Below, one piece after another: positions 20,461-37,529 of a stretch of DNA of 37,678 nt (the stretch's first letter is position 1; each line of letters begins with the position of its first letter). The position numbers were made by a program, and so were the translations under genes. The stretch covers positions 1-37,678 of the forward strand of contig JAAYRD010000001.1 in the NCBI GenBank assembly GCA_012518955.1. The letters run 5' to 3'. Source of the stretch: Tissierellia bacterium (GTDB taxonomy: Bacteria > Bacillota > Clostridia > Tissierellales > Tepidimicrobiaceae). The notes under the pieces are model-generated. The model did no database searches. It saw nothing but the letters and a program-made list of their open reading frames with translations, and was not told the DNA's origin.

Positions 20461-21738
20461 TTATGCATTTAACACCGCTTCTAATATAGCCTCTGTTAAA
20501 GAAGGATGTATTATTAAATTTGATTTTATATCTTTTACCATAACTTTATTGTGAATTAATATGCTCAATAAACTTACATATTCAGATACATTTTCTCCTA
20601 CCATCCATATCCCTAATATTTTCTCCTCTTGGTCTATTATTACCTTTACAAATCCTTCTTCTATATCCTTTGCCCAGCCTCTCCAAGTATCCTTAAAATA
20701 AGAATATCCTACCTTGTAAGGCAAAGTTAATTCCCATTCTTGCTTTCCTACACCAGCCATCTCAGGCAAAGTAAATATGGCCCGTGGCAATTCCTCATAC
20801 TTTATATCTACGGGAGTATTATGGAGTATATAGTCTGCCACCTGTATTCCTTGATATATGGCTATATGTCCCATGCCCATGATGCCATTTATATCTCCAA
20901 TAGCAAATACATGGCTTTCATTCGTTGCTAGATTTTCATCTACAACTATTTTATCCTCTTTTACAATTATATTTAACCTTTCTACTCCTCTAGGGATATT
21001 TGGTTTTCTAAGAAGGGTAACCAAAGCCTTGTCTCCTTCTATAGTTCTTCCATCTTCTAATATGACCTTAACCCTTTCTTTTTCTGTCCAGGCCTTTTCT
21101 GCTCCAACCCCTTTTATTATATTAACCCCTTTATTCTTTAGATAGTTTTCAATAGGAAATACTAAATCCTCATCGTTTCCCAACAGTAAGCTGTCCTCTT
21201 TTTCCACTATGGTTACACTAACTCCCAACTCTGCATATAGAGCTGCAAACTCTACTCCCTCTACATTTCCTCCTAGTATTATCATAGTTTTGGGAATAAC
21301 GCTTAAATCTATCGCTTCTTTATGGGTTATTATCCTATTCCCGTCTATAGGTATTTCTCTAATGCTAGCAGATTCCGTGCCTGTAGCTATTATTATATAA
21401 TCTCCTTCCAATATAGTATTTCCCACATTATAGGATTGGGAATCTATAAACTCTCCTTCTCCAAAATAAATGTCTATACCTTCGTTTATAAGGTTGTTTT
21501 TTATTCTATTATCCAAAACTTCTAAATCTCTATCCCAAGTAGATAGAAACTTTTCATCACCTTTTTTAAAGGAATCCAAAATCTTCTTTACCGGCAACGC
21601 ACCCCAACGAAGAGCTGTACCACCTAAGGACTCCTTCTCTATTAATGCTACTGATTTGCCTCCCCTTGCCAAAGTGATGCTACTATAATATCCAGCTAGT
21701 CCTCCACCTAATACCAAAACATCATATCTTTTCTCCAC
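20461..21738 (-). CDS. Lipoamide-dehydrogenase-like flavoprotein lacking the redox disulfide
   Basis: FAD/NAD(P)-binding class I pyridine-nucleotide oxidoreductase fold, 425 aa. FAD site LGGGLAGYYSS (10-20), NAD domain ILGGNVEGVEFAALYAELG, second FAD motif VFAIGDINGIMGMGHIA, and a C-terminal dimer domain ending in IHPSLTEAI, which keeps the His-Glu pair of the family. The defining CxxxxC is gone: where relatives read GGTCLNxGC, this has GGTALRWGAL (A42, A47). It therefore cannot do disulfide exchange as lipoamide dehydrogenases do; NAD(P)H oxidase or another flavin-only reaction is more likely. GTG start with AAGGAG 8 nt upstream, directly after the permease stop. Role beside a nucleoside-type importer is unknown. 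Confidence 0.85.
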   Translation of the reverse strand: MEKRYDVLVLGGGLAGYYSSITLARGGKSVALIEKESLGGTALRWGALPVKKILDSFKKGDEKFLSTWDRDLEVLDNRIKNNLINEGIDIYFGEGEFIDSQSYNVGNTILEGDYIIIATGTESASIREIPIDGNRIITHKEAIDLSVIPKTMIILGGNVEGVEFAALYAELGVSVTIVEKEDSLLLGNDEDLVFPIENYLKNKGVNIIKGVGAEKAWTEKERVKVILEDGRTIEGDKALVTLLRKPNIPRGVERLNIIVKEDKIVVDENLATNESHVFAIGDINGIMGMGHIAIYQGIQVADYILHNTPVDIKYEELPRAIFTLPEMAGVGKQEWELTLPYKVGYSYFKDTWRGWAKDIEEGFVKVIIDQEEKILGIWMVGENVSEYVSLLSILIHNKVMVKDIKSNLIIHPSLTEAILEAVLNA

Positions 21739-28910: not shown

Positions 28911-30950
28911 TTATAAGGATGTGAGTTTCACCAATAACGCCCTATCTGGTGGGAATCCACTTATGGGATCTAAGTTTTCATTGTCCGTAAGTTCATTTGC
29001 ATTGGCATCATTCCAGCCATGTGAAATCAAAGCTGTTGTAGGTAATACATCTTCCGTTATTTCAGCCTTTAATTTTATGCTTCCCCTTAGACTTTCAACC
29101 TTAACCATATCTCCATCCTTAATCTTTTTCCTTTCTGCTATCTGAGGATTAATTTTGACCTTTGCCACCTCTTCTTGGCTTTTATAACCGTTGAGAGACT
29201 CTATGTTTCTATATCTTGAATGATAATATTGTAAATACCTAGCTCCAGTTGATAATACCAGTGGGTATTCCTCTGCTAATTCTTTCGTTGATAATGGACT
29301 TTCAGCTGGTTCATTATATATAGGCAAAGGATCATATCCTGATTTCTCTAAAGTTGTAGAATATATCTCCACTTTTTTAGAAGGGGTATTGAATCCATTT
29401 TTAGTATATTTCTTTTCTTCAAAGGTTCTATATTTATACCCATAGTTCATATTAAGCATTTCTTCAAATGTTTTTCCTATCTTTTGAAACCTATATCCTA
29501 TAGCCTCTTCATCAGAATTCCAAGGAAAAGCTTCTTCAAGTCCCATACCTTTGGCTATATCAGAGATAAATTTACACTCTGATATACCTTGTTTGCTCTC
29601 TATTAATTTAGGTGCTAAGCCTACTATACCGTCACCAGAACTATCCACACCATTCCATATCTCATACCTTTCTATAGGGAATGTTCCTGGAATGATGATA
29701 TCTGCCATCTTAGCTGTTTCAGTCATAAAATTATCCATTACCACTAAAAAATCTAAAGCTTTTAATGCTTCCCTTAGCTTATTAACATTAGGCCATGTTA
29801 AGATAGGATTACTTCCAATGATCATCATTCCTTTTAATGGATAGGGTTTGTCTTCTAATATTGCATCGCTAAATATATTGGCTTGTGCACTATTATAATT
29901 AGCACAGAACAGCGGATATTCAGATTTCCCTATAGGTTCCCTATTGTATTTAACATTCTCCAACTCTAGAGAAGATAAAGGGGGAGGAGGACTCATAGTA
30001 GCTCCTCCAATTATATCTATATATCCCATAATTGCTTGAAGTATTGAAATTGCTCTAGCTGTTTGAAATCCATTTGATAAAAGCTCTATTGCTATTCCAG
30101 GAGAAATGTTCCCTGGTTTATTGTTGGCAAATATCCTAGCACCTTCTACAATAAGCTCCTTAGGAACATCTGTAATCTTTTCAACCTTTTCCGGTATATA
30201 GTCTTTGACTAATTCAACTAGTTTGTCAAAACCTACGGTCCATTCTTCTACAAAATCTTTGTCGTAGAGTTCTTCCTCAATTATTATATGGATTAGACCC
30301 AAGGCTAATGCCCCGTCTGTTCCTGGTCTTAGTTGTAAATGAACATCTGCCCTTTTGGCAGTATAGGTTTTTTGAGGGTCTACTACAATCAATTTAGCCC
30401 CATTATTTATAGCCTTGTTTATATCCATCATTTGACTCGGCCTAGAATTCATAGGATTATATCCCCACAAAACTATACATTTACTATTTTTATAATCAGC
30501 ACTAGGAAGAACCCCTACAGTCATCTTATTTGCCATCTCCTTTGATAGATGACAATGGCTTCCCGCTGATGATTGGTTTGGAGTACCATAAGCTTGTCCA
30601 AACCTTCTTACATGTCCTGAAAATTGCTTTCTAACCCCTGCTTCTCCTGTATGTACTGCCAATGATTCACTTCCAAAATTTTCTTTTAAGTATGTAAATT
30701 TTTCAACTATAATATCAATTGCCTCTTCATAGCTTATTTCATGCCAATTCCCATTTTCATCTTTTTTCATTGGACAACTCAATCTATCCTTAGCGTAGAG
30801 CATCTCAGGCAATGCCCTTCCCTTAGGACAAGTAAATCCTTTAGATATAGGATGTTCCTTGTCTCCCTTCACAGAGAGCACCTTGTTATCTTCCACCATT
30901 ACTTCAATTCCACAATTTCCACTACAAAGAGTACATATTCCTTTAGCCAC
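28911..30950 (-). CDS. Molybdopterin (bis-MGD) oxidoreductase, FDH/thiosulfate reductase superfamily, Cys ligand
   Basis: DMSO-reductase-superfamily enzyme, 679 aa, cytoplasmic (no Tat signal). Residues 1-55: 4Fe-4S domain with CTLCSGNC (C6, C9, C13) and CPKG (C41; the following Lys is the usual electron relay). Residues from about 55 to 550: molybdopterin domains; AGSHCHLS places Cys133-His134 where E. coli FDH-H has Sec-His, so Mo or W is probably Cys-ligated. C-terminal from about 570: cofactor-binding domain with LVLSTGARYLQYYHSRYRN. Start at GTG 30950 (MAKGICTLC) because AAGGTGG lies 8 nt upstream; the track's ATG 36 nt earlier has no ribosome site. 50 nt after the ABC ATPase gene, apparently the same operon. 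No partner subunit visible. Substrate unknown. Confidence 0.88.
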   Translation of the reverse strand: MAKGICTLCSGNCGIEVMVEDNKVLSVKGDKEHPISKGFTCPKGRALPEMLYAKDRLSCPMKKDENGNWHEISYEEAIDIIVEKFTYLKENFGSESLAVHTGEAGVRKQFSGHVRRFGQAYGTPNQSSAGSHCHLSKEMANKMTVGVLPSADYKNSKCIVLWGYNPMNSRPSQMMDINKAINNGAKLIVVDPQKTYTAKRADVHLQLRPGTDGALALGLIHIIIEEELYDKDFVEEWTVGFDKLVELVKDYIPEKVEKITDVPKELIVEGARIFANNKPGNISPGIAIELLSNGFQTARAISILQAIMGYIDIIGGATMSPPPPLSSLELENVKYNREPIGKSEYPLFCANYNSAQANIFSDAILEDKPYPLKGMMIIGSNPILTWPNVNKLREALKALDFLVVMDNFMTETAKMADIIIPGTFPIERYEIWNGVDSSGDGIVGLAPKLIESKQGISECKFISDIAKGMGLEEAFPWNSDEEAIGYRFQKIGKTFEEMLNMNYGYKYRTFEEKKYTKNGFNTPSKKVEIYSTTLEKSGYDPLPIYNEPAESPLSTKELAEEYPLVLSTGARYLQYYHSRYRNIESLNGYKSQEEVAKVKINPQIAERKKIKDGDMVKVESLRGSIKLKAEITEDVLPTTALISHGWNDANANELTDNENLDPISGFPPDRALLVKLTSL

Positions 30951-31000
30951 ATCTTCACCCACCTTAATATATTCAAAATAAATCATTTCTATATATCTTA

Positions 31001-31765
31001 TTAATCCTCTGTCATCTCCGGACTTGCCTTTGTTAAGGCTATAGTCAATTGATTTTTATACTTCTCATACTCAATAGATTTCCTATTCCTAGGCCTATCC
31101 AACTCTATATTCATATCTTCTACTATTTGACCTTTATTGGTAGACATAACTATAACCCTATCACTTAAATAAACTGCCTCATCTACATCATGAGTAACCA
31201 TAACCACTGTTGTCCTATCCCTTAGCCAAATTTCTTCCAATTCATCCTGTAGGCTCTGTCTCATCTGAAAGTCCAAAGCTCCTAAAGGCTCGTCCATTAG
31301 AAGTACACTTGGTTTAGTAGCCAAGGCCCTAACCAATGCAGTCCTTTGTTTCATTCCTCCAGAGATTTGGTGGGGATATAGCCCTTCCCTACCTTCCAAT
31401 TGAGACATTTCCAGCAGAACTTTCAGTCTTTCTTCCCTTTCTGCCTTCGGCATCTTTATTTGCTTCATTGGAAATAATATATTATCTTTCACCGTCATCC
31501 AAGGAAATAAGGCATAGTTTTGGAATACAAATCCTCTATCTGGACCTGCTTTTACAACCTTTTTTCCTTCCACTATTATTGAGCCTGAATCAGGTTTTTG
31601 AAATCCCGCTATTATAGTTAGCAAAGTAGTCTTCCCACAACCCGAAGGTCCAAGTAATGATATAAATTGTCCCTTGTCCACTTCAAAGCTAATATCCTTA
31701 AGTACTTGATTTATATTTCCGTTACTGATAAAGGTTTTATTGATTGCATCCACCGTTAGTTCCAT
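31001..31765 (-). CDS. saoA: ABC transporter ATPase of the selenoprotein importer (SsuB/TauB-like)
   Basis: Energises the importer whose permease is encoded just upstream, 254 aa. Walker A GPSGCGKTT, VFQNYALFPWMTV, signature ISGGMKQRTALVRAL, Walker B VLLMDEPLGALD, H-loop VMVTHDVDEAV: the pattern of nitrate/sulfonate/taurine ATPases. The track starts at 31783, but that ATG has no ribosome site and lies inside the permease reading frame after the Sec codon is read through. ATG at 31765 overlaps the true permease stop as TAATG, with GGAGG 11 nt upstream, a coupled start. The name follows the Sao set from memory. Confidence 0.88.
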   Translation of the reverse strand: MELTVDAINKTFISNGNINQVLKDISFEVDKGQFISLLGPSGCGKTTLLTIIAGFQKPDSGSIIVEGKKVVKAGPDRGFVFQNYALFPWMTVKDNILFPMKQIKMPKAEREERLKVLLEMSQLEGREGLYPHQISGGMKQRTALVRALATKPSVLLMDEPLGALDFQMRQSLQDELEEIWLRDRTTVVMVTHDVDEAVYLSDRVIVMSTNKGQIVEDMNIELDRPRNRKSIEYEKYKNQLTIALTKASPEMTED

Positions 31766-32574
31766 TACTGTGCGTGCCTCCATTTAGTAAGTGTTTTATT
31801 AATAATTTGTAGTATCCTATCGATACCAAAGCCAACAAACGCAGACATAAACATCAGTGCCATAAGCACATCTGTTTGCATTCTAGTTTGGGCTTCAACC
31901 ATAGAGTAGCCAAGACCGGCACTCGTCGCTATGAACTCCGCTCAGACAACGGACATCCAACCAGTACCTACAGCAATCCTTGCTCCTGTAAGCACATCGG
32001 GTATTGAAGCTGGAATTATTACATTAACAAATATACTAAGTGGACCTGCTCCCATACTCCTGGCTGCATTATAGTAATCCTTTGAAATACCCCTAACTCC
32101 TTGCATTGTATTGAGTATTATTGGAAATACTCCAGAAAGCGCAATCATGAATAAAGTTGGTCCATCCCCTATTCCTAGCCAAATAATGGTTAAAGGAACC
32201 CAGGCCATAATAGGTACCTGTCTTACCGAGTCTATAATACCTCCTAGAAGCTTTTCAGCTAGCTCCGAAAGACCCATTATATATCCTATGGGTATCCCTG
32301 CCAACAACGCATATAGAAATCCCTTAAGTACTCTTTTCATAGTAATTGACAAATTTAGTAATATCTCTGGATCTGTGACGGAACTAACTAATGCTTTAGC
32401 TATTGCCATAGGCGTAGGTAGTAATAATGGTGAATCTATCCTAATAGCTCCAAAATACCATATTCCAATGACTCCAACAAATACAAGTCCCCTATATATC
32501 CTTTCTTTTATATCTCTTTTTTTCATTTCTGAGTATCTTGATCTTCCTTTATAGAGAGAAGCTTTATTTTCCAT
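31765..32574 (-). CDS. saoP: ABC transporter permease, selenoprotein (TGA read as Sec)
   Basis: SsuC/TauC-type membrane subunit, 269 aa including Sec211. The track stops at TGA 31942-31944, but the frame continues AEFIATSAGLGYSMVEAQT... to TAA at 31765, and this tail is what relatives have (WMSxVAAEMxxxxxGLGY). The EAA loop NAARSMGAGPLS and PASIPDVLTGAR lie before the Sec; Sec directly precedes the conserved Ala-Glu in the next membrane segment. Start at 32574 has GGGGGG 8 nt upstream but overlaps saoB by 52 nt; ATG 32526, overlapping the saoB stop as ATGA, is an alternative giving 253 aa. Pseudogene status is unlikely given conservation past the TGA and the intact neighbours. Confidence 0.85.
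31905..31923 (-). promoter_or_regulatory. Candidate bacterial SECIS hairpin of saoP
   Basis: 18 nt after the UGA the mRNA can form AGUGCC-GGUCUU-GGC(U)ACU: six pairs with one bulged U. The GGUCU in the loop is the element SelB contacts in the E. coli fdhF SECIS. Position and loop fit a bSECIS; other Sec genes here have weaker-looking candidates (for example CUGGU/ACUAG, 37471-37492). Confidence 0.5.
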
Positions 32575-33314
32575 TTTTCTAACCCCCCTTCTTCTAAATC
32601 AGTTTTAGTGTAGTTGTAAAAATGTTGTTTCAATAAATTTTCTTCCTCCATCAATTCTTCTAAGGATTCATTATATATCTTTATAAATTTCTTAAATTGT
32701 CTAGTTTTCTTAAACTCTGTATTAGATAGTAGAACATAGGTGGTATAATCTCCATCAACTACTGTATCTTCCTTTGTTCCATTTAAATGTACTCCCTTTA
32801 TAAAATCAATTATAATTGCATCCACTTCCCCTTTCTCTAATGCATAGGGAAGAGCTCCCACCATCATTGAAACTATTTCTACATCTTCTCCAAATCTTTT
32901 CCTTATTAAATCTATTTGATAATCCCTATCCTGAGTCATACCAACTACTTTAGGACTCTGGGTATTCATAACAAATATATCTGAATTCATCGTGCATTCA
33001 GAGATTACCTCAAACCCTTCCGTATTTTCAAGATATTCTTTAGCTGCCTCTTTGCATATAATTGCCATATCCAATAAATCTGAGCTCAAGGCCCATTGAG
33101 AAGTTTTGGCTCAGCAGTCCTTTATAAAATAGGCTTCTAATTCATCTCCCGCCTTTATTTTTTCATCTTTTATCATATAATCTACAACAAAACCAGAAAT
33201 ATCATCAGACACTCCAACCCTCACCTTTCCTCCCACCAATACTTCTGATGGGAGAAAAAAGGTTATGGTTATAGCTACTCCAATAATCAGTATTATTAGA
33301 AGTATTCTATTCAT
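32523..33314 (-). CDS. saoB: Membrane-anchored substrate-binding selenoprotein with Cys-Sec pair
   Basis: 263 aa with Sec68; the track shows two fragments (33111-33314 and 32523-33089) separated by TGA 33111-33113. Residues 3-22 form an uncleaved or signal-anchor helix (ILLIILIIGVAITITFF) with no lipobox Cys. The rest resembles a periplasmic-binding type 2 domain: VRVGVSDDISGFVVDYMI, then FIKDC-Sec-AKTSQWALSS..DMAIICKEAAK, then a second lobe (VGALPYALEKGEVDAIIID). Cys67-Sec68 is a vicinal thiol-selenol that could hold a soft metal or metalloid. Starts with an 8-nt overlap with the preceding receptor gene. I recall SaoB as an ABC substrate-binding (seleno)protein of this kind. Confidence 0.82.
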
Positions 33315-34413
33315 CTATTCCATCTATCTCCATTGCTTTTTGTTTAAATTCCTCATAGCCCATACCTATAGGAAATATTGGATCTACCTTTTCTTTGATA
33401 AATTCATCAAAATCGTCTAAATTAGCTGCATTGTAAATATCATAAGCTATTAGATCTTCAAACTCAGGCAATTTTTCTATTAAATCATATTTTTCATATA
33501 CATTATAAGCATGTTGGAAATTTTCTTCTTCAATTTGCCATGTTAAGGTTCTACCCTCTTCTACACATTTTTTATATATAGTCATGATTGCAACTTCTTC
33601 TGGAACATTATAATATTCAGCAAATATCTTTGCTGCTTCATAAGGATGCTCATATACATATTCTATACTCTTTTGATGGGCTAGTAATAACTTTTTAGCT
33701 AGCTCTGGATGCTCTTCTACGAATTTTTCATTTAAGGAGAAAGCACAACAAATACCCATTTTATCATCCATCTCCATGTAAGTAGCCATTATCTTACCAG
33801 TACCATCATAGACAGCCATAGAACCCCAAGGGTCACAAGCGGTAAAGGCCTTGATTTGACCAGTACTTAAAGCCATGTATGCATCTGCATCTGAACCAAT
33901 ATTTACTAGATCATAATCCTCTTCATCCGTAGATAGATTTAATATCTTTGAATATCCAGCTATCCAACCTTCACCTTTAGGATTACCAATAGCTACTTTT
34001 TGACCATATAATTCTTCTGGATCTTCTATATCATTTGCTACTACCAAATACATAGAACCTCCAATATGGTTGTTAGCTCCAATTAAAATTGGAGAACCTT
34101 GACCATTAGCAGCAATCAACCCTCTATTACCAATATATCCAGCATCCATCTGTCCTGCTGCCATAGCCTCTGGAACTTTACCATTTCCAGTTAACTTTAC
34201 ATTTAACCCCAACTCTTCATAAATTCCTGCTGCCTCACCAATTGGTGCACCTACCATATGGTCACAATTGTAATAGCCTAAATTGATTTCATAATCATCT
34301 GCAACATCTTTTCCAGCTATTGGTTTTGCTCCCGTATCTTTCTTGCCACAGCCCACCAAGGATGTAGCCATTAAAATTCCCACCAATAAGAACAATAGTA
34401 TTCTTTTTTTCAT
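33307..34413 (-). CDS. ABC substrate-binding lipoprotein, NrtA/SsuA-like, Cys form
   Basis: Extracellular receptor, 368 aa. Signal peptide MKKRILLFLLVGILM, lipobox LVGC (Cys22). The first strand of the mature domain ends in GYYNC (Cys50), exactly where the tandem copy at 34547-35647 has Sec. Other likely site residues: FTACDPWGSM and GICCAFSLN with a Cys pair. Start at 34413 (MKKR) is 10 nt from GGAGG; the track adds three codons. It overlaps saoB by 8 nt, so receptor and SaoB are coupled. Product of a tandem duplication; 50 bp at the 3' end are identical in both copies. It probably feeds the SaoP-SaoA transporter. Confidence 0.85.
   Translation of the reverse strand: MKKRILLFLLVGILMATSLVGCGKKDTGAKPIAGKDVADDYEINLGYYNCDHMVGAPIGEAAGIYEELGLNVKLTGNGKVPEAMAAGQMDAGYIGNRGLIAANGQGSPILIGANNHIGGSMYLVVANDIEDPEELYGQKVAIGNPKGEGWIAGYSKILNLSTDEEDYDLVNIGSDADAYMALSTGQIKAFTACDPWGSMAVYDGTGKIMATYMEMDDKMGICCAFSLNEKFVEEHPELAKKLLLAHQKSIEYVYEHPYEAAKIFAEYYNVPEEVAIMTIYKKCVEEGRTLTWQIEEENFQHAYNVYEKYDLIEKLPEFEDLIAYDIYNAANLDDFDEFIKEKVDPIFPIGMGYEEFKQKAMEIDGIDE
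33308..33357. repeat. 50-bp direct repeat, copy 1
   Basis: Identical to 34548-34597. Covers the last codons of the receptor gene (QKAMEIDGIDE) and the ATGAATA start of saoB. Confidence 0.9.
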
Positions 34414-34518
34414 GTTCACCATTCCTCCACTTTAGTTGTATATTTCTCTGATTATCATCATAAGAGCCATCCCATTGTATTACCACAATTTCCACCAAAT
34501 GTAATAGCTTATCTTTCT

Positions 34519-34554
34519 TTAAACAACCCATAGTATTAAGAATATCTTATTCAT
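34519..34554 (-). pseudogene. Possible remnant of a duplicated saoB start
   Basis: After the Sec receptor gene the minus strand reads MNKIFLILWVV and then TAA, overlapping the receptor stop exactly as saoB (MNRILLIILII...) overlaps the Cys receptor. It suggests the duplicated unit included the start of saoB and the second copy decayed. Only about 11 codons can be compared, and the first lie in the identical repeat, so the case is moderate. The remaining 100 nt up to the next gene show no saoB similarity. Confidence 0.4.
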
Positions 34555-35647
34555 CTATTCCATCTATCTCCATTGCTTTTTGTTTAAATTCCTCATAAGT
34601 CATACCTACAGGTAAAATCGGATCTACTTCTTCTTTTATGAAGGTATCAAAGTCTTTTGCTCCACATTCAGCCAATATTTGTTCATATACAACATCTTCA
34701 TACTCTGGCAACTTTTCTAAAAGATCATATTTTTCATATATACTATAAGCATGTTCAAAATTATCATGGTCTAATTTCCAAGTTAAGGTCCTACCTTCTG
34801 CAACGATCTTTTTATAGATAGTCATTATAGAAACTTCCAATGGAACACCAAAGTATTCAGAGAATATCTCAGCTGATTTATATGGATGTTTATAAACATA
34901 TTCTACAGATTTTGTATGAGCTAATACCAATTTTTTTGCCAAATCTGGATGATCCTTTATTAAGTTTGTATTTAGGGAAAATGCACAACATACTCCCATC
35001 CTATCGTCCATTTCCATATAGGTAGCCATAATTTTCCCTACCCCTTCATGTTCTGCCATAGATCCCCATGGATCACAACAAGTATATGCATCGATTTGAC
35101 CCATTTTTAATGCAGTAAACTTATCTGCATCCGAGCCTATATTGACCAATTCATATGCATCAGGATCATCAGTCAGATTTAATATCTTGCCATATCCACA
35201 TTGCCAAGCCTCACTAGTTGATGGATCTGGCATAGCAATTTTTTTACCTAATAAATCCTCTGGTTTTTCAATATCATTTGCTACAACTAGATACATAGAA
35301 CCACCTATATGATTATTCGCTCCTACTACTATTGGAGAGCCTAATGCATTGGCCCCATATAAGCCTCTTGTTCCTATATATCCTGCATCCATCTTCCCTG
35401 CTGCCATGGCCTCTGGAACCTGACCATTTCCAGTTAACTTTACATTTAATCCAAGCTCTTCATAAATTCCTGCAGCTTCCCCAACGGGTCCGCCTATCAT
35501 GTGATCTCAGTTGTAATATCCTACATTTAATTCATAATCCTCCGCAACATCTCCTGATTTTTTACCAGTGTCTTTCTTACTACATCCTGCTAAGGATGTA
35601 GCTACCATTACCCCTACTAGCAAAAATAGTAGTATCCTTTTTTTCAT
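34547..35647 (-). CDS. ABC substrate-binding lipoprotein, NrtA/SsuA-like, selenocysteine form
   Basis: 366 aa with Sec47. The track splits it into 35507-35707 and 34547-35500 at TGA 35507-35509. Read through, GYYN-Sec-DHMIGGPVGEAAGIYEELG lines up with GYYNCDHMVGAPIGEAAG of the Cys copy, and similarity continues without shift on both sides: the strongest Sec evidence in the window. Signal peptide MKKRILLFLLVGVMV, lipobox LAGC (Cys22). Additional cysteines in YTCCDPWGSM (the Cys copy has one fewer) and GVCCAFSLN. Start at 35647 is 10 nt from AAGGAG; two further ATGs just upstream are alternatives. It follows saoC by 31 nt. Confidence 0.9.
34548..34597. repeat. 50-bp direct repeat, copy 2
   Basis: Identical to 33308-33357; the 1,240-bp offset is about one receptor gene plus its spacer, marking a tandem duplication. 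Confidence 0.9.
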
Positions 35648-35678
35648 ATTCATCATTCTCCTTTTTCTTGGTATATGA

Positions 35679-36146
35679 TCAGCAACAATCCTCCATTCCA
35701 TCTCCAAATAGATCCTTTAATTCTAGGCCTTCAACTCTAAATATGGCATATCCAAACTTTCCATCTTTAGATCCAGATACGATAAACTCCATCGGTGGCT
35801 TTTTATCTATATCTTTAAATTCTATTGTCTGGTTCTCTATTGGAGCTGGTACTTCTTCAGTAATTTCGTATTGACTTCCTTTATCTAAAACTACTACCAT
35901 TCCATTAGACCGTTTAGCCTTATTAAATATTACGATGAGGTCCTTCGTTCCATCACCGTTCATATCTTCGTATCCACATTTTAATATTTCATTATCCGGA
36001 TATTGGGATATAAAATGTTGTAATAGTTCATTGTCCAAGCTTACTCCTAAATCCTTCTCTTGTTTAATCTTATCCTGGCTAAATCCCCATATTCCTAGTC
36101 CAAAAATTATTATAATTACAATTGGAATTCTTAATTTTTTCCACAT
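35679..36146 (-). CDS. saoC: Membrane-anchored protein ending in Cys-Cys-COOH
   Basis: 155 aa. Residues 7-23 are an N-terminal membrane anchor (IPIVIIIIFGLGIWGF). The exported domain has DMNGDGTKDLIVIF, an EF-hand-like DxNGDGxxD loop as in VCBS/FG-GAP proteins, and later VSGSKDGKFGYAIFRVEG. It ends GDGMEDCC with two Cys as the last residues, a flexible vicinal dithiol. I recall a family called 'Cys-Cys-COOH (seleno)protein SaoC' that fits. The stop is TGA, but I take it as a real stop because the next gene's ribosome site and starts follow at once. ATG with GAGAGG 8 nt upstream; 14 nt after saoE. Confidence 0.82.
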   Translation of the reverse strand: MWKKLRIPIVIIIIFGLGIWGFSQDKIKQEKDLGVSLDNELLQHFISQYPDNEILKCGYEDMNGDGTKDLIVIFNKAKRSNGMVVVLDKGSQYEITEEVPAPIENQTIEFKDIDKKPPMEFIVSGSKDGKFGYAIFRVEGLELKDLFGDGMEDCC

Positions 36147-36160
36147 AGTTTCTACCTCTC

Positions 36161-37249
36161 CTAATTGAATGCCTTTTCAAAGCTATCTTTGACCTTTGGC
36201 ATAATCCCCTTTAAAAAGAATATAAATATTATAGCTGAGCATAAATATTTTAATGGTTCTGGCGCTGCAAATATGAGTCTATTTGCACTTTCTATGGATT
36301 TATCAATATTATTAAAATTAATTACCGGTTTAAATCCAGGCATCAATAGCTTATTTGTCAAAGCCCCTACTAATAATGCAGCTGTAGTCACTATAGTCCC
36401 ATACATTATAGCTGTTCTCTTACCAATTACATTGTAAATACTTATAAGTTCTGGAAAATTGGTAGCCGCTCCTGCCATTAAAAATGTAATAGCAACCCCT
36501 GGCGCCGCTCCACTAGCCACTAAAGCTGCTATGAAGGGGATGTGTCCTACAGCACAGACATACATTACTGTAGCCAGCACAGCAATGTTTCCAAGGGATA
36601 ACATGCTCGGATTCCCCAGATATTTTTGTATAAAGGTATCTGGGAAGGCCGTTATTATAAAACCACCTAAAAGCATACCTAGTATTACATATTTACTAAC
36701 TATTAAGGCCAAATCATTATATGCCCAAATCATTCCTGATTTTATCTTATCCTTTAATGTAAGATTGACTTTATCATCTAGGCTTGTAGCAATTATCTGC
36801 TCCTCTAAACCTGGCATTTTCAGTTCGTCCCCTCCAAATTTATTGGCTACAATTCCTATAATCATAGGAAGGGTAAATCCTACTATTAAGTATATAAGGG
36901 TAATCTCCTTCCCCAAAAGACCATAACTTAAAATAACTGCACAAGGATTTATTATAGGAGTAGATGTCATAAATGCTAACACAGGACCCAAGTATGCTCC
37001 TGAATAATACATACTCAATCCTAGAGGGATTGTCCCACAACTGCAAATAGGTAGAAACATTCCAGATATAGTTACTTTTAATAAAGAAACTATTTTAGTA
37101 TTCCCTAAAGATCTATGAAACCTTTGAGGAGATAAAACATCACGCAACAAACCTGCAATAGTAAAGCTAAATATTAGCCAGGGAGAAGCTCCATTTAGCA
37201 TACTTATGGCAGCAAGTAACATAGATTTTATAAAATCAAATATGATCAT
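36161..37249 (-). CDS. saoE: ArsP/DUF318-type permease (putative organometal(loid) exporter)
   Basis: Integral membrane protein, 362 aa, about 8-10 helices with a cytoplasmic loop near residues 140-170. The family signature FLPICSCGTIPLGL (Cys-Ser-Cys) is present, followed by TSTPIINPCAVILSY and, in the second half, AVGHIPFIAALVASGAAPGVA and LMAGAATNFPEL. Characterised ArsP members export trivalent organoarsenicals, so removal of a metal(loid) product is a reasonable inference. It lies 16 nt after saoT and 14 nt before saoC. AGGAG is 13 nt upstream of the ATG, a rather long spacing; no better in-frame start was found. Confidence 0.85.
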   Translation of the reverse strand: MIIFDFIKSMLLAAISMLNGASPWLIFSFTIAGLLRDVLSPQRFHRSLGNTKIVSLLKVTISGMFLPICSCGTIPLGLSMYYSGAYLGPVLAFMTSTPIINPCAVILSYGLLGKEITLIYLIVGFTLPMIIGIVANKFGGDELKMPGLEEQIIATSLDDKVNLTLKDKIKSGMIWAYNDLALIVSKYVILGMLLGGFIITAFPDTFIQKYLGNPSMLSLGNIAVLATVMYVCAVGHIPFIAALVASGAAPGVAITFLMAGAATNFPELISIYNVIGKRTAIMYGTIVTTAALLVGALTNKLLMPGFKPVINFNNIDKSIESANRLIFAAPEPLKYLCSAIIFIFFLKGIMPKVKDSFEKAFN

Positions 37250-37265
37250 TTAGACTATTCATCTC

Positions 37266-37529
37266 CTATTCATCCAACTCTTTAACCGCCTCTTCTATTG
37301 CTTTTTCTATGGTGTCCTTGGAAAGCCTTTCTATCTTTTTATTTTCATTGATAATCAAAGTTCCCCTAAAAATAACCCCATATTTTTTTATGTAATCAAA
37401 ATCCTTTCCAGCATAGTAAATCTTTACATCAACCTTATCCTTATATTTTGCTGCAGCAGCCTCTACAGCTCTAGTATTACCATCACAACCAGATCAGGTA
37501 TTTATAAATTCAACCAATACCTTAGACAT
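37266..37529 (-). CDS. saoT: Thioredoxin-like selenoprotein with UxxC motif
   Basis: 87 aa with Sec12, absent from the ORF track because TGA 37494-37496 lies near its start. The product begins MSKVLVEFINT-Sec-SGCDGNT: a beta strand then Sec-Ser-Gly-Cys, exactly the CxxC site of small thioredoxin-fold proteins with Sec replacing the first Cys. The rest fits the fold (RAVEAAAAKYKDKVDVKIYY, KYGVIFRGTLIINENK), although the usual cis-Pro before TLIIN is Gly. ATG has GGAGG 8 nt upstream. First gene of the selenoprotein operon and 16 nt before saoE. No signal peptide, so cytosolic: it could reduce or receive a metal(loid) in the cell. Confidence 0.85.

Follow-up and report, generated by a model that had tools for sequence, protein, structure and literature searches.

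By its profile match, the 155-residue protein studied here is a clear member of the NCBIfam family NF040734, "Cys-Cys-COOH (seleno)protein SaoC", and the best explanation of its terminal dithiol, which we regard as an evenly balanced proposition, is that a membrane-anchored, extracytoplasmic SaoC accepts a soft metal or metalloid leaving the cell via the permease SaoE. The basis for this explanation was observed directly and consists of family membership, invariance of the Cys-Cys pair, the gene order saoT-saoE-saoC, SaoE-SaoC fusion, co-occurrence of the two proteins, and homology to FG-GAP-like lipoproteins, while we infer the outside location of SaoC, its docking, metal binding, the direction of transfer, and Ca2+ in its loop. 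The gene lies in a 37,678-nucleotide stretch of DNA from a Tissierellia bacterium, referred to as the window.

The original prediction had placed a protein with Cys-Cys as its last two residues and a DxNGDGxxD loop at 35679-36146, and both features are present in the open-reading frame at exactly that place (GDGMEDCC-stop and DMNGDGTKD). The frame is on the minus strand, which the prediction had not given, and comprises 155 codons with the 3′ end GAT-TGT-TGC-TGA (D-C-C-stop), producing the C-terminus GMEDCC. It belongs to an operon, encoded entirely on the minus strand in the order saoT, saoE, saoC, saoX, saoX, saoB, saoP, saoA, in which each product scores above its own NCBIfam cut-off:

37266..37529, minus strand: saoT, thioredoxin-like selenoprotein, UGA at codon 12 (NTUSGCDG); NF040730, 127.9 bits with U read as C
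36161..37249, minus strand: saoE, ArsP_1-family efflux permease, directly upstream of saoC; NF040736, 535 bits; PF03773
35679..36146, minus strand: saoC, Cys-Cys-COOH protein, 155 aa; NF040734, 195.3 bits (cut-off 80), profile positions 4-148 of 148
34547..35653, minus strand: saoX copy 1, selenoprotein with a UGA in frame at YYNUDHM; NF040735, 458 bits, read-through
33307..34422, minus strand: saoX copy 2, Cys form, 70% identical to copy 1; NF040735, 508 bits
32523..33314, minus strand: saoB, selenoprotein with Cys-Sec (C67 U68); NF040727, 164.9 bits, read-through
31765..32574, minus strand: saoP, ABC permease, Sec at codon 211; NF040733, 303 bits, read-through
31001..31783, minus strand: saoA, ABC ATPase; NF040729, 441 bits

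Score, CC-COOH end, and an operon with SaoT, SaoE, SaoX, SaoB, SaoP, and SaoA were thus all found together. SAO stands for the selenocysteine-assisted organometallic system (Haft and Gwadz 2023, as cited in a 2026 review, PMC13188914). The review gives a CU motif for SaoC (NF040734), its Cys-Sec form being WP_252346668.1, and names Sec as a possible metal ligand in both SaoB and SaoC. Given the NF040734 match inside an SAO operon and the review entry, the SaoC family and its unusual C-terminus are already described and the window gene is a further example. The architecture, which had been called odd, is odd, but it is that of a named family. In the available sources, the names of SAO proteins derive from their sequences and gene context, and their functions are predicted.

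In four of the operon genes, a position at which Cys or Sec would be expected is taken by an in-frame UGA: codon 12 of saoT, codon 68 of saoB, codon 211 of saoP, and one codon of the first saoX. As a result, saoB, saoP, and saoT are cut short or split by standard open-reading frame calling (31765-33314 and 37266-37529). The tandem saoX copies (33307-35653) differ at the YYNUDHM motif, Sec (UGA) in the upstream copy corresponding to Cys in the other. At three further loci (L091, L099, and L105), saoT has its in-frame UGA two positions later in the alignment (14 instead of 12), which suggests a different place for Sec in the SaoT motif. A molybdopterin oxidoreductase gene (window 28911-30986) adjoins the operon, and relatives of it stand beside SAO genes at L107 (70%), L103 (47%), and L101 (44%).

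The original prediction had looked to SaoB or the receptors as partners of the tail, whereas gene order, co-occurrence, and gene fusion point to the permease SaoE. In all 23 neighborhoods with saoE, saoC directly follows it and saoT precedes it; at one further locus, L120, saoC is broken and saoE is absent. Across 113 genomes of one class, SaoE scored above its cut-off in 16, all of which also have SaoC, and SaoC was found in 17, of which 16 have SaoE. Three loci (L007, L009, and L010) encode SaoE and SaoC as a single open-reading frame of 510-522 aa, each above both NCBIfam cut-offs. These loci represent three genera of one family, so that the fusions, belonging to one family-level clade, may be a single event, and they may also reflect co-regulation rather than a shared channel. 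ArsP is an exporter of trivalent organoarsenicals.

Were SaoC instead to serve the import side, its dithiol at the outer face would capture a metal compound and pass it to the Cys or Sec of SaoX, SaoB, or SaoP. This alternative, which we consider unlikely, is consistent with the presence of saoX or saoB directly after saoC in most loci, with the vicinal Cys-Sec pair of SaoB, which mirrors the Cys-Cys of SaoC, and with genome G989, where saoT, saoE, saoC, and saoB are kept together while saoX, saoP, saoA, and saoL are on a different contig. However, at L107 the saoT-saoE-saoC unit is on the strand opposite to the ABC importer genes, the fusion partner is SaoE and no importer protein, and co-occurrence of SaoC with SaoE is near complete. 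At L105 and L117, the ABC importer genes are on a contig other than that of the saoT-saoE-saoC unit.

The terminal cysteines were followed through a sample of 50 SaoC loci, obtained by NF040734 searches of related genomes and one contig search (the window locus and 49 further), from which 46 distinct full-length proteins were aligned:

35682..35687, minus strand: codons of Cys154-Cys155 (TGT TGC), followed by the stop TGA at 35679-35681; invariant in 46/46 distinct full-length homologues

Cys-Cys occupies the last two NF040734 profile positions in 50/50 loci, and homologues from the same gene neighborhood therefore keep the tail cysteines throughout. Of the endings proposed for homologues (CC, UC, or CU), the first was found in every locus and the other two in none of the 50. 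A single SaoC (locus L069, genome G989) departs from an exact CC end through an extra Asp, giving CCD. Among the 46 aligned proteins the pair is the only invariant cysteine in SaoC, the other invariant positions being D69, A101, P102, E120, G125, K127, and G132, and identity to the window protein ranges from 26 to 56% (37 aligned homologues). All four combinations of TGT and TGC are used at the two tail cysteines (16, 11, 10, and 9), and this synonymous variation at both codons indicates that the amino acids are held rather than the DNA. Within the window, SaoC alone of 66 open-reading frames of at least 60 aa ends in CC, and in 27 related-genome neighborhoods 21 of 654 frames of at least 80 aa do so, all 21 being SaoC or an SaoE-SaoC fusion. 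Since CC-ended frames belong exclusively to SaoC and its fusions in both sets, the ending is not due to chance. A selenocysteine extension past the UGA stop (CCU...) was considered and rejected: TAA or TAG stands at or one codon beyond that place in 40/46 homologues, and the sequences downstream of the six UGA stops have nothing in common.

The two cysteines lie at a fixed 7 and 8 positions past the conserved F147, with M151 present in 45 of the 46 aligned proteins, and the columns from F147 to C155 are free of gaps in all 46, which argues against a free arm. The tail thus seems to be a short element of fixed length, rather than a long swinging arm, and suited to a docked hand-over; being too short for a far swing, it would need a close dock for any hand-over of metal. 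The same fixed length, together with the conserved M151 and F147, would fit a C-terminus packed against SaoE in a SaoC that acts as a structural or gating subunit of the permease and transfers no metal, and the conserved positions A101, P102, E120, G125, K127, and G132 can be counted in favor of such a role. We nevertheless find this role distinctly improbable, as two invariant terminal cysteines, no other invariant cysteine, and the reported Cys-Sec form fit thiol or selenol chemistry better. Improbable to a similar degree is a purely redox role, in which the tail, rather than binding metal, would make or break disulfides in SaoE, SaoX, or some other operon protein with Cys or Sec: vicinal thiols can be redox active and the thioredoxin-like SaoT is always encoded in the saoT-saoE-saoC unit, but the SaoT sequence has no export signal and the protein would sit across the membrane from SaoC, a vicinal Cys-Cys disulfide is strained and rarely an efficient exchanger, and the remaining functions of the operon are mainly transport.

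Ahead of the tail, the body of SaoC is of FG-GAP type and contains two repeats:

35940..35966, minus strand: DxNGDGxxD loop (DMNGDGTKD), residues 61-69, in the first FG-GAP-type repeat; D61 in 45/46, D65 in 41/46, and D69 in 46/46 proteins
35772..35813, minus strand: second, degenerate FG-GAP-type repeat (DIDKKPPMEFIVSG, residues 112-125), with E120 and G125 invariant, aligned by hhalign with the second lipoprotein repeat

N63 of the loop is conserved in 36/46 SaoC proteins and its glycines less so. FG-GAP_3 is the best Pfam match of the window SaoC at 17.2 bits, below the gathering score of 26.9, and 11 of 38 SaoC homologues match it weakly (E ≤ 0.01). A SaoC profile matched a secreted esterase in the PDB (E 0.0018), with repeated stretches matching the DxNGDGxxD loops of the esterase, while a PDB search with the single SaoC sequence gave nothing significant; an AlphaFold model built from a two-sequence alignment had a pLDDT of 44, too low to support any statement on structure. 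Alignment by hhalign with larger FG-GAP-like lipoproteins gave probabilities of 97.3 and 97.9 (E 2e-11 and 3e-13) over ~135 columns, taking in the second degenerate repeat DIDxKPPxEF. The loop had been described as EF-hand-like, and the spacing of its acidic residues is alike. This reading was rejected, since Pfam matches at E up to 10 included no EF-hand and SaoC matches go to FG-GAP beta repeats instead. From what is known of the FG-GAP family, the first loop probably binds Ca2+.

With FG-GAP/FG-GAP_3 (PF13517) and the Firmicutes-type FG-GAP-like lipoproteins, SaoC has in common the DxNxDGxxD loop and the second degenerate repeat. The nearest relatives of SaoC outside the SAO system are mostly larger proteins of this kind (270-460 aa) and without CC, whereas SaoC is two repeats and a tail only. 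Since the homology ends at about LFG ahead of the tail and a CC end is absent from all 28 FG-GAP-like relatives inspected, SaoC resembles two repeats taken from an FG-GAP-like lipoprotein and given an M-x-x-C-C end.

The original prediction had also called the protein exported, which is plausible given its hydrophobic N-terminus:

36078..36134, minus strand: hydrophobic anchor at the N-terminus, residues 5-23 (19 residues, hydropathy 2.1)

Because this is a single hydrophobic segment without a clear lipobox, membrane anchoring is its likelier role. A simple rule that also caught some false sites finds a lipobox-like cysteine at the place of the anchor in 23 of 46 homologues. The SaoE-SaoC fusions have a short K/R-rich linker between the last SaoE helix and the SaoC helix, which suits an extracytoplasmic C-terminal SaoC domain, while simple hydropathy gave no clean topology for SaoE. 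Hydropathy on its own is not enough to fix the topology.

In the mechanism that we favor, export by SaoE followed by capture outside, SaoC would be tethered to the cytoplasmic membrane, on its outer face, through the N-terminal helix or a lipid, its body forming a two-repeat FG-GAP-type beta unit, probably with Ca2+ at the first loop, and ending in the fixed-length M-x-x-C-C-COOH tail. SaoC would dock to the permease SaoE from outside, where the terminal dithiol could take the thiophilic metal or metalloid moved out, and this capture would pull release forward and prevent re-entry. A more specific statement, which we offer tentatively and would sooner doubt than accept, is that SaoC serves an ArsP-type exporter as the subunit that accepts metal at the outer face, its two-repeat FG-GAP unit presenting an M-x-x-C-C-COOH (or Cys-Sec) ligand at the pore exit with no need of a MerB-like lyase in many hosts. 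If true, this would be a distinct way to complete soft-metal efflux, for which the natural SaoE-SaoC fusion would be direct evidence of pairing.

The MerB-like lyase SaoL scored above its cut-off in 18 of 48 SaoC genomes, a lower bound as several genomes are incomplete, and none was found above the cut-off in the window's own genome (G000, 97% complete) or in 29 other SaoC genomes. The SaoC-SaoE pair is thus independent of SaoL. Genomes lacking SaoL commonly carry the other SAO genes, and the label of organometal cleavage is weakened accordingly; besides organometals, inorganic thiophilic metals or metalloids may serve as the substrate. The strict pairing of SaoE with SaoC, their fusions, and the many genomes lacking SaoL suggest that being an organometal open to cleavage by SaoL is no requirement for the substrate. 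A single-sequence query found no SaoC homologues in viral contigs and plasmids.

The closest chemical comparison is with mercuric reductase, MerA, to which the tail had been likened by the original prediction and whose C-terminal cysteine pair and its conformational change are described in a 2023 paper (PMC10587081). The two share vicinal C-terminal cysteines and a soft-metal context, and a MerA-like, metal-handling dithiol in SaoC is chemically reasonable. The ligand chemistry of the analogy therefore holds up, but its mobility probably does not carry over: MerA is a cytosolic flavoenzyme whose flexible C-terminal segment serves the active site in the dimer, whereas SaoC has no recognizable catalytic domain, a short fixed tail, a presumed outside anchor, and no visible sequence relation to MerA. 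The window also encodes a product resembling a pyridine-nucleotide-disulfide oxidoreductase (20461-21738) that is missing the usual CxxxxC redox pair; it was rejected as a MerA partner, being below the MerA cut-off and having neither that pair nor a CC tail. The staphylococcal SaoC of the saoABC operon (PMC9223772) has the name alone in common, being a DNA-binding protein. The likeness to the NF040734 family itself extends to the full-length match, the CC-COOH end, and the company of SaoT, SaoE, SaoX, SaoB, SaoP, and SaoA, and nothing essential differs, the window copy being Cys-Cys where the form listed in the review (WP_252346668.1) is Cys-Sec.
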